NCBI GenBank assembly: GCA_021810505.1 | Contig: JAJZIR010000001.1 | Coordinates: 124,001-188,000 of the forward strand | Reading direction: 5' to 3' | Source of the DNA: a bacterium | GTDB taxonomy: Bacteria; Deinococcota; Deinococci; Deinococcales; Deinococcaceae | Length of the DNA stretch: 64,000 nucleotides | Shown: piece by piece, positions 3,028 through 48,739 of the stretch | Layout of the letters: each line of letters starts with the position of its first letter | How positions within the stretch are numbered: the stretch's first letter is position 1 | Program-made: the position numbers and the translations under genes | The notes under the pieces: generated by a model | Told to the model about the DNA's origin: nothing | Databases searched by the model: none | Seen by the model: the letters and a program-made list of their open reading frames with translations, nothing else

Positions 3028-3057
3028 TTGACAGGGTGTGGGAGGGCACCCTAGACT
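3028..3057 (+). promoter_or_regulatory. Sigma-70-type promoter of the leader/ABC transporter unit
   Basis: A consensus -35 TTGACA (3028-3033) is followed after 18 bases by TAGACT (3052-3057). The same -35, 18-base spacing and -10 recur at 48559-48588 ahead of the SAM riboswitch, which supports this as a real promoter type here. Transcription would start near 3064, leaving about 210 bases of leader before the permease gene. Confidence 0.7.
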
Positions 3058-3085
3058 TGGGGAAGAGTTGTCCCGAGGAGGTGGT

Positions 3086-3157
3086 ATGGAACCCGGTCCT
3101 AGTTCAGAGACAGCCAGATCGCAGACAGCTTGGCTGCTCGGGGTCCCTGCCGCCTGA
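3086..3157 (+). CDS. Putative 23-residue leader peptide 1
   Basis: ATG 3086 is preceded by a strong Shine-Dalgarno sequence (GAGGAGG, 3075-3081) and opens a 23-codon frame starting MEPGPSSETARSQTAW and ending at TGA 3155-3157. It sits about 22 bases after the predicted transcription start, and its stop lies 11 bases before an 11-bp inverted repeat that can mask the next Shine-Dalgarno site. The placement is that of a regulatory leader peptide. No homologue is recognised, and protein-level function is unproven. Confidence 0.45.
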   Translation: MEPGPSSETARSQTAWLLGVPAA

Positions 3158-3168
3158 ACCCGCGGTCA

Positions 3169-3214
3169 GGACCTCCTGAGCAGCGCTAGCCCCGCCCCGC
3201 CTTTCAGGAGGTCC
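3169..3214 (+). promoter_or_regulatory. Hairpin sequestering the next Shine-Dalgarno site
   Basis: GGACCTCCTGA (3169-3179) is the exact reverse complement of TCAGGAGGTCC (3204-3214), giving an 11-bp stem with a 24-base loop. The right arm contains the AGGAGGT ribosome binding site of the ATG at 3218. The left arm can also fold locally, TCAGG with CCTGA, so two alternative structures exist. Translation of leader peptide 1 ends just before it and could change the folding. Confidence 0.6.
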
Positions 3215-3217
3215 GCC

Positions 3218-3277
3218 ATGCTCTCCAAGCCAGCTCAGCTTGGCACCCCCTTGGGGGTTCCTGTGGGCCGCCCGTGA
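3218..3277 (+). CDS. Putative 19-residue leader peptide 2, coupled to the permease
   Basis: ATG 3218 follows AGGAGGT at five bases spacing and encodes 19 residues starting MLSKPAQLGTPLGVPVG, ending at TGA 3275-3277. The stop overlaps the GTG start of the ABC permease (GTGA). The permease has no good ribosome binding site of its own, so its translation probably depends on reading this short frame. An internal palindrome, ACCCCCTTGGGGGT (near 3244-3257), adds possible structure. It could instead be part of a longer permease N-terminus only if frames differed, which they do. Confidence 0.5.
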   Translation: MLSKPAQLGTPLGVPVGRP

Positions 3278-5250
3278 ACCGGCTGTTCCCGGACCCCCAA
3301 GCTCTGCGCAACCGCCGGCTCTTCTCCAGATGGGACCTGGTCGTGTTGCCGCTGGTGCTGGGCGGCCTCTATCTGGCCACGGTCGCCTTTCGGGGAGTCG
3401 ATATCCCTTATGGGCCTGGCTCGCCCAACCTCACCGTTCACCTGGCTATCGCCAACCTGCCCTACTACGCCCTGCAGTCCTCTTTTCGGATGCTGGTGGC
3501 CATCGTGGCCAGCCTGCTGTTCACCCTGATCTACGCCCCGATCGCCGCCAAGTCCAAGCGAGCGGAGCGTATCTTGATCCCGGTCTTGGACTTCCTGCAG
3601 TCGCTGCCTATCTTCGGTTTCCTCACCGCGACCACGCTCATCTTCATCGGTATCTTTCACGGCCTAGCCCTGGGCCTGGAGGCGGCCAGCATCTTTGCCG
3701 TCTTCACCTCGCAGGTCTGGAACATGACCTTCAGCTTCTACAACTCGCTGCTCACCGTGCCCAGAGAGCTGGATGAGGCGGCCAGGATCCTGGGCCTCTC
3801 GGCCTGGCAGCGCTTCTGGCGGTTGGAGCTGCCCTACGCCATGCCGGCGCTGATCTGGAATACCATGATGTCGGTCTCAGGGGGTTGGTTTTTCATCGTC
3901 GCCTCCGAGGCGCTCAGCGTGGTCGGCCGCAACCGGCTGCAGTACCTGCCCGGGGTCGGCTCCTATGTCAGCTTGGCCATCCAGCGCGGAGATATCTCGG
4001 CCATGGTGGCAGCTGGCGCCGCTTTATTTTTGGTCGTCCTGCTCTACGACCAGCTGATTTTCCGCCCCATGGTGGCCTGGGCGGACAAGTTCAAGTTCGA
4101 GGAGTCGGCCGGAGAGAGGAGCGGCTCTTGGGTTTTGACCGCCCTGCAGCGCTCCCAACTGATCGCTCGAGCGGTGGCCCTCCTAGCCGTCCCCTGGTCT
4201 TGGCTGTTCGCAGCCAGCCGCAGGCGGCCGATCAAGCCGGTCGAGCGCCCTGCGGCCCAGGACTCCCGCTGGCGCGATCTACTCTGGGGAACCGCGCTGG
4301 CCCTTCTCGCCGCCGCGCTGGCCCTGGCGGTGCTGCGTTTCCTGTTCGGACCCAGCCTGGGCCTGGGCCCCCACGGCGCCCTCGCCCCCAACCCCAACCT
4401 CAACCCCTCTTTCCGCGCGCGCCTGGCTACCTCTTACCGAGTGGCCGGGGTGCAGGTCGGCCCTAGCCGGGCGGTCTGGGCCTCGCGGGTCTGCCACAGG
4501 TTGGCCCAGCCGGGAGCGGGCCAGCTGCGCCGGCTGCTGGGCGCTCGGATGAGCTCGCTGGCCTGCGGCGCCCAGATGGTCCCTGCCGGGCGGGTAGCCT
4601 GGGAATCGGTCCCCAAGGTCTTGGTGCTGGGCTTCTACACCATGCTGCGGGTGCTGGGCGCCTTGACCGTGGCCGGCCTGATCTGGACCCCGATCGGGGT
4701 CTGGGTGGGCTTCCGTCCCCGGCTGGCCCGAGCGGTGCAGCCGCTGGTACAGTTCGCCGCAGCTTTTCCAGCCAACCTGCTCTTCCCCCTGGTGGTGGTC
4801 TGGATCGCCAACTTCCACCTCAACCCCCAGGTTTTCGTAGCCCCTTTGATGATCTTGGGTAGCCAGTGGTACATCCTGTTTAACGTGATCGCAGCCGCGT
4901 CGGCGATTCCCAGCAACCTGCGCGAGGCGGCCAAGATCTACCACCTGCGCGGCGCACTGCTCTGGAGGCGGCTGATTCTCCCGGGGATCTTCTCCGGTTT
5001 CGTGACTGGCGGGATCACCGCCGGCGGAGCTGCTTGGAACGCTTCGGTGGTCGCCGAAGTGGTCTCTTGGGGCTCCATCACCCTGACGGCCAGCGGAGTG
5101 GGGGCCTACATCGCCCACTGGAGCATCGGGGAGCTGAACCCGCACGTGCTGTTGGGGATGGTGGTGATGGCGATTTTCGTCTTGTTGTTCAACCGCCTGC
5201 TCTGGAGGCGACTCTTCCGTTTCGCCGAGGAGCGTTTCCGCTTCGACTAG
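3274..5250 (+). CDS. NitT/TauT-type ABC transporter, double-length permease
   Basis: A 658-residue membrane protein made of two binding-protein-dependent permease domains in one chain. The N-terminal half (about residues 20-270) and C-terminal half (about 450-650) each have several membrane helices and an EAA loop: ELDEAARILGLSAWQRF near residue 164 and NLREAAKIYHLRGALLW near residue 547. A further helix near residues 333-356 and an extracytoplasmic linker of about 90 residues join them. The ATPase gene follows 37 bases downstream. No substrate-binding protein lies nearby, so the linker might take part in substrate capture. Nitrate, sulfonate, bicarbonate or a metal-related solute are all possible; the sequence does not decide. 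Confidence 0.85.
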   Translation: MNRLFPDPQALRNRRLFSRWDLVVLPLVLGGLYLATVAFRGVDIPYGPGSPNLTVHLAIANLPYYALQSSFRMLVAIVASLLFTLIYAPIAAKSKRAERILIPVLDFLQSLPIFGFLTATTLIFIGIFHGLALGLEAASIFAVFTSQVWNMTFSFYNSLLTVPRELDEAARILGLSAWQRFWRLELPYAMPALIWNTMMSVSGGWFFIVASEALSVVGRNRLQYLPGVGSYVSLAIQRGDISAMVAAGAALFLVVLLYDQLIFRPMVAWADKFKFEESAGERSGSWVLTALQRSQLIARAVALLAVPWSWLFAASRRRPIKPVERPAAQDSRWRDLLWGTALALLAAALALAVLRFLFGPSLGLGPHGALAPNPNLNPSFRARLATSYRVAGVQVGPSRAVWASRVCHRLAQPGAGQLRRLLGARMSSLACGAQMVPAGRVAWESVPKVLVLGFYTMLRVLGALTVAGLIWTPIGVWVGFRPRLARAVQPLVQFAAAFPANLLFPLVVVWIANFHLNPQVFVAPLMILGSQWYILFNVIAAASAIPSNLREAAKIYHLRGALLWRRLILPGIFSGFVTGGITAGGAAWNASVVAEVVSWGSITLTASGVGAYIAHWSIGELNPHVLLGMVVMAIFVLLFNRLLWRRLFRFAEERFRFD

Positions 5251-48618: not shown

Positions 48619-48739
48619 CTCTTATCCAGAGCGGCGTAGGGATCTGGCCCTGAGACCGCCGCAGCAACCGGCCAACATAGCGGTACGGTGCTTCCCAGCC
48701 GACTGGTTCGCGGTCGCCCACCGGTCGGAACGATAAGAG
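48619..48739 (+). ncRNA. SAM-I riboswitch aptamer (S box)
   Basis: Closing helix P1 is CTCTTATC (48619-48626) paired perfectly with GATAAGAG (48732-48739). Between them are the conserved core elements: CAGAGCGGCGTAGGGAT, CTGGCCCTGAGACC, GCAACCGG and CGGTGCTTCCCAGC, plus a P4 arm CCGACTGG / CCGGTCGG. The order and junction sequences match SAM-I rather than SAM-IV. It would turn down metY and metX when S-adenosylmethionine is plentiful. Confidence 0.92.

Follow-up and report, generated by a model that had tools for sequence, protein, structure and literature searches.

What could two very short reading frames and a hairpin be doing between a promoter and the start of an ABC permease gene? The window analysed here (G000:C8:124001-188000) is a 64 kb stretch of a 2.3-Mb genome, which named relatives place in the order of Meiothermus and Calidithermus, and the features of the leader and the operon all lie on its + strand. 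A sigma-70-type promoter was read directly at 3028..3057 (TTGACA at 3028-3033, 18 nt spacing, TAGACT at 3052-3057), where the promoter search found one promoter-like site compared to 0.0 expected in shuffled sequences. Similar promoters lie upstream of the leader in the relatives G025 and G071, and transcription probably starts near 3064. The first reading frame, uORF1 (3086..3157, 23 codons, MEPGPSSETARSQTAWLLGVPAA), runs from ATG 3086 to TGA 3157 and has its own Shine-Dalgarno (SD) sequence, SD1 (GAGGAGGT, 3075..3082), for which folding predicts partial masking by the 3′ end of uORF1, with an opening cost of 9.6 kcal/mol. Downstream lies a perfect 11-bp inverted repeat (3169-3179 and 3204-3214), the left half of which forms the core (GGACCTCCTGA) of an anti-SD arm, segment C (3162..3184), while the right half is segment D (TCAGGAGGTCC, 3204..3214), which holds SD2 (AGGAGG, 3206-3211). 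The second frame, uORF2 (3218..3277, 19 codons, MLSKPAQLGTPLGVPVGRP), extends from ATG 3218 to TGA 3277 and shares the letters GTGA with the permease start codon GTG 3274. A sequence-only reading had described the consensus promoter, the 23-codon frame, the repeat that hides SD2 and the 19-codon frame overlapping the permease, and direct reading confirmed each of them.

The leader precedes a fused two-domain NitT/TauT-like permease of 658 aa (3274..5250), in which PF00528 matches two stretches, and an ATPase with a C-terminal AAA_assoc_C domain (PF09821; 5288..6592). A gene for a binding protein was not found adjacent to the permease and ATPase genes, and the gene neighbourhood in other phyla offered no consistent neighbour to name a substrate. 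Some genomes of the Thermus group carry an Nramp-type metal transporter beside or near the ABC system (L166:8063-9286 and L171:1589-2839, the L166 copy with a Pfam match), which is possibly a hint at the substrate, though an inconsistent one across taxa. The closest described parallel in architecture is the PF09821-containing Nrt/Ssu/Tau-like ABC system of Ca. Liberibacter asiaticus, which likewise has two tandem membrane domains in one permease, an extra C-terminal domain of predicted winged-helix fold on the ATPase and no binding protein; unlike the present case, no leader is described for it, and the paper, the one found on PF09821, names no substrate (PMC3688454). Elsewhere in the window, a SAM riboswitch (RF00162, 62.6 bits, above the gathering score) was found at 48619-48739 (+), and a strong hairpin (GGCAGAGCTCCGGG...CCCGGAGCTCTGCC) followed by TTT occupies 2532-2573 in the 5′ part of a called ORF (2495-2989), the gene of which may start later, near 2604.

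Perfect 11-bp inverted repeats with loops of at most 45 are not rare in the window (10 in 64 kb compared to 2.4 expected in block shuffles), and the case therefore rests on placement and conservation. The protein search covered 111 genomes of the order, and a search of the phylum gave the same number. A close permease (E <= 1e-228) is present in ten of the 111, namely the window and nine Meiothermus/Calidithermus-type genomes, whose copies are 57-60% identical and include those of M. granaticius, Calidithermus roseus, M. taiwanensis and one Thermaceae MAG. In 9/9 of these Thermaceae genomes, a short uORF followed by an SD-masking hairpin homologous to C:D is found at the orthologous operon. 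In the C:D stem, 89.8% of the cells are paired, and one pair occurs as CG and as UA in four leaders each. The window SD2 is predicted to be closed, with an opening cost of 10.2 kcal/mol at 37 °C and 6.9 kcal/mol at 60 °C, and across all ten leaders SD2 is sequestered in a hairpin at a cost of 5.3-16.5 kcal/mol. Directly after D, a run of five or six T follows in the G025, G073, G014, G061 and G062 leaders, which suggests that C:D may also end transcription in several Meiothermus/Calidithermus leaders. In the window, the D arm is followed by GCCATG; the T run is absent, and a search of the window leader found no terminator-like site and thus no intrinsic terminator of the kind that forms the last hairpin of trp/leu-type leaders.

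A covariance model of the leader matches exactly the ten leaders among the 111 genomes of the phylum; weaker matches in G055, G035 and G063 (two with E of about 0.001, one with 0.014) lie inside coding sequence and were rejected. When the model was built without the window, it missed the window leader at any E-value up to 10, so that homology of this leader rests on layout and operon position. Its assignment was based on operon position, the order of the parts, AGT at codon 6 of uORF1, the overlap of uORF2 with the permease and a helix of its own between uORF1 and C. The compared leaders represent only about eight lineages related by descent, and such a leader was not seen in the inspected permease homologues outside Thermaceae. 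In M. granaticius, a second permease copy (L127, G059:C47) has a relay mini-ORF with a CTGA overlap, without the anti-SD arm or a recognisable uORF1. The check proposed earlier, for conservation of the mini-ORFs and the stem in relatives, did not refute the reading: the stem, uORF1 with its SD and the overlap recur in nine Thermaceae, and partners in the stem and in an alternative stem change together, but peptide conservation is only moderate and the window leader is missed by the model of the others.

The pattern of conservation within uORF1 is uneven. A start codon, an open frame and an SD of its own are present in 10/10 leaders, and equivalents of 19-21 codons (MEDxGSY..KPxPPGG.. and relatives) occur in eight Thermaceae leaders, while in the ninth, G061, the frame reaches the hairpin without meeting a stop. 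The most conserved part is the first twelve codons, which read MEDxGSYxxKPx in most Thermaceae. Codon 2 is GAA throughout the ten leaders except for one GAC, and codon 6 (3101..3103 in the window) is the rare serine codon AGT in all ten; AGT is used 2.3 times per 1000 codons in the window (3.7% of its serine codons) and 3.6 times per 1000 in Meiothermus/Calidithermus. The first 16 codons of the ten leaders together contain 20 in-frame AGT codons, and the other two frames have none (two or three in six leaders, one in the other four, the window among these four). Pairwise comparison of four Thermaceae lineages gives 24 codon differences, of which 13 (54%) are synonymous compared to 24% expected for random changes; in the M. 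ruber trio, the uORF1 changes are two synonymous and five non-synonymous pairs. These comparisons point to moderate conservation at the peptide level, as judged from the sequences. The early codons are kept, and the later part appears to be kept as RNA rather than as peptide, which is the pattern that an attenuator with an early pause predicts. Three further candidate features were rejected: a PPG stall motif is not conserved (PLG in G073, PHG in G014); AGT in upstream ORFs of Thermus, present in several, is not clearly above the non-coding expectation; and a P1 stem of the spacer with the 3′ part of uORF1 is weak as a universal feature in M. granaticius, the Thermaceae MAG and G071.

The part of uORF1 that appears to be kept as RNA is segment B (3133..3153, codons 16-23), which is predicted by folding and co-variation to pair with C and so to free SD2. 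When arm C was scanned against all upstream sequence, its best or a strong partner was found at the same place in uORF1 in most leaders. The mean B:C energy was -26.1 kcal/mol within the same lineage compared to -20.2 kcal/mol for mixed lineages; only 3 of 40,320 permutations matched the lineages as well, while for C:D the number was 431 of 40,320. The B:C signal appears only at uORF1 offsets +18 to +36, with nothing on either side, and holds when any one lineage or the alignment correction is dropped. Since the other segments scanned were drawn from equally related sequences, relatedness alone does not explain this signal. Compared to uORF1 sequences shuffled by dinucleotides or by whole codons, B:C is stronger in each lineage (z of -1.6 to -3.4), with a z of about -2.9 for the helix of the window. 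In G061, a 1-nt insertion after codon 14 shifts the uORF1 frame and keeps B:C. The window helix between B (3133-3153) and C (3162-3184) has 19 pairs and an energy of -26.6 kcal/mol, nearly equal to the -27.5 kcal/mol of C:D; C:D is somewhat more stable at equilibrium, and an open state would therefore need co-transcriptional kinetics.

Folding with a modelled ribosome on uORF1 suggests how its position could decide between the two helices. The footprint was assumed to be 30 nt, and a shift by one codon moves the borders given here by one codon. With the ribosome at codons 2-9 of the window uORF1, the predicted opening cost of SD2 falls from 10.2 to 4.5-5.7 kcal/mol, compared to 8.0-14.6 kcal/mol for later positions. 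In G025, a ribosome at codons 1-4 lowers the cost from 16.5 to 6.2-8.4 kcal/mol, and in G064 a ribosome on early codons lowers it from 9.5 to 4.7 kcal/mol. Such a drop with early-codon ribosomes is predicted in most leaders, and late-codon ribosomes keep the cost high; G071 and G064 match the model less cleanly. When the RNA was truncated at the end of C, B:C formed in the model with an early-codon ribosome and essentially never once the ribosome had reached B. Taken together, these models predict a helix that excludes C:D, frees SD2 and is controlled by the position of the ribosome. A different scenario, in which a ribosome would melt the SD2 hairpin on terminating translation of uORF1, was rejected because masking the stop region barely shifts the opening cost in most leaders.

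We propose that this leader controls translation as a ribosome-mediated attenuator, of the kind known from erm, toiL and trp, and we put the probability of this reading at roughly 0.58. In the OFF state, C would pair with D and hide SD2; in the ON state, C would pair with B inside uORF1 and SD2 would be free. If uORF1 is translated without a pause, ribosomes would cover B and C:D would form, whereas a pause at an early codon, most likely around the invariant rare serine codon AGU at position 6, would leave B free, so that B:C could form as the RNA emerges and SD2 would open. Translation of uORF2 would follow, and that of the permease would be coupled to it through the stop/start overlap. Low charging of tRNA-Ser, a small molecule and general translation stress are candidate causes of the pause. 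Sequence comparison establishes the layout, the two alternative helices, the overlap of the relay and the invariant codon; uORF1 is presumably translated, with early pausing and a kinetic win of B:C. The sequence-only reading had suggested that translation of the first peptide could open or close the hairpin, for which the predicted B:C helix now supplies a concrete mechanism, and its likening of the region to leader-peptide control gains support from the layout in 9/9 Thermaceae and the alternative helices.

The role of uORF2 as a translational relay is well supported by comparison of the leaders. In seven orthologous leaders and in the second M. granaticius copy, the uORF2s have 13-43 codons and unrelated sequences, and all eight (8/8) finish in an NTGA placed precisely at the permease start codon, in line with the earlier suggestion that the second peptide couples translation to the permease. 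The sequence of the relay thus appears to be free, while its coupling overlap is kept. Five species, and also G061, have another short ORF after the hairpin that overlaps with the start of the permease. In G025, G073 and G014, the leader instead precedes a P-loop kinase-like gene, the last codons of which overlap with that start. This gene (L134:5871-6542, L172) replaces uORF2 in the M. ruber clade, and its Pfam matches (AAA_18/AAA_33) are just below the cut-off. Several short uORF2s end like the kinase (GGRP; GVRP, GGPR), which suggests that the uORF2s may be remnants of the kinase gene, or that the kinase was inserted.

A metabolite-binding riboswitch, which we consider improbable, would read the same leader differently: the conserved 5′ domain would be an aptamer, uORF1 would be incidental, and B:C versus C:D would be the expression platform. 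The aptamer stem would join the spacer before the uORF1 ATG to codons 15-20 and close a loop with GGAAGAC..GGYAGUUAC..AAGCC. In the M. ruber clade, G061, G062 and G064, the minimum-energy folds contain this stem, with changes on both of its sides (GCACCCC/GGGGTGC, CTACTCC/GGGGTAG, GCAGCCCC/GGGGTTGC), but the RNAalifold consensus does not choose it, 27% of its cells are unpaired, and the window does not preserve the loop. The spacing of SD1, which in Thermaceae is 10-15 nt upstream of the ATG and far for efficient initiation, would suit an ORF that is poorly translated, as would the shifted frame of G061 with its intact B:C. Against this, the start codon and open frame hold in 10/10 leaders, AGT is confined to the coding frame, and synonymous differences are in excess in the four lineages. 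No Rfam family matched the leader, permissive settings included, which agrees with the earlier statement that no known class of riboswitch could be recognised.

Less probable still is a masking hairpin that is unregulated or temperature-dependent, setting a low basal translation or, since these bacteria are thermophiles, melting with heat, with no sensing role for uORF1. Both SDs can be masked, and the opening cost of SD2 drops from 37 to 60 °C in every leader, but at 60 °C the hairpin is still predicted to be closed (3-11 kcal/mol), and the species-specific match of B to C and its confinement to uORF1 would be left unexplained. Least probable is that the leader of the window resembles that of Thermaceae by coincidence, its strong hairpin and pair of small ORFs being chance features of GC-rich DNA. 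The failure of the leave-one-out model and the frequency of 11-bp repeats would allow this, but it is unlikely that operon position, part order and spacing, AGT at codon 6, the GTGA overlap and a B:C helix in the corresponding position should all occur at once.

If the attenuator reading is right, it adds a switch shared by two families to the few leader-peptide switches known from this phylum, the cause of the ribosome pause becomes a direct route to the substrate of the transporter family, and the relay ORF illustrates how an operon can stay under attenuator control even when its first gene is gained or lost. A more specific and doubtful version, which we offer tentatively, is that the switch senses the reading of AGU at codon 6, through low charged tRNA-Ser or a ribosome-halting small molecule; the pausing signal would then point to the substrate of the ABC system, and an expendable relay mini-ORF, whose place a kinase gene can take, would pass the switch on to the transporter.

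In cat attenuators, a leader peptide and alternative helices release an SD when a ribosome pauses on the leader. The present leader would share this arrangement, also with the erm translational attenuators; erm and cat are antibiotic-induced with a resistance gene downstream, whereas here an importer-like ABC system and a relay ORF follow. In the E. coli topAI-yjhQ operon, the folded leader containing the uORF toiL hides the downstream SD, which stalled ribosomes unmask, and erm has been described as a parallel (PMC12121999). Like toiL, the present leader has an upstream short uORF, the first residues of which are the most conserved part, and hides an SD. Unlike toiL, which itself pairs with the SD of the gene and whose stalling is supported by experiment, uORF1 is predicted to pair with the anti-SD arm, ribosome stalling on it is a proposal, and a second mini-ORF would relay the opening of the SD to the gene. 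Ribosome-mediated attenuators of the trp/his/leu type follow a II:III versus III:IV scheme (PMC1183508). The present leader differs from these in having no biosynthetic gene downstream, a single invariant serine codon and no terminator in the window; it resembles them in the mutually exclusive B:C and C:D helices, in a possible rare regulatory codon and, in some relatives, in a terminator-like T run.
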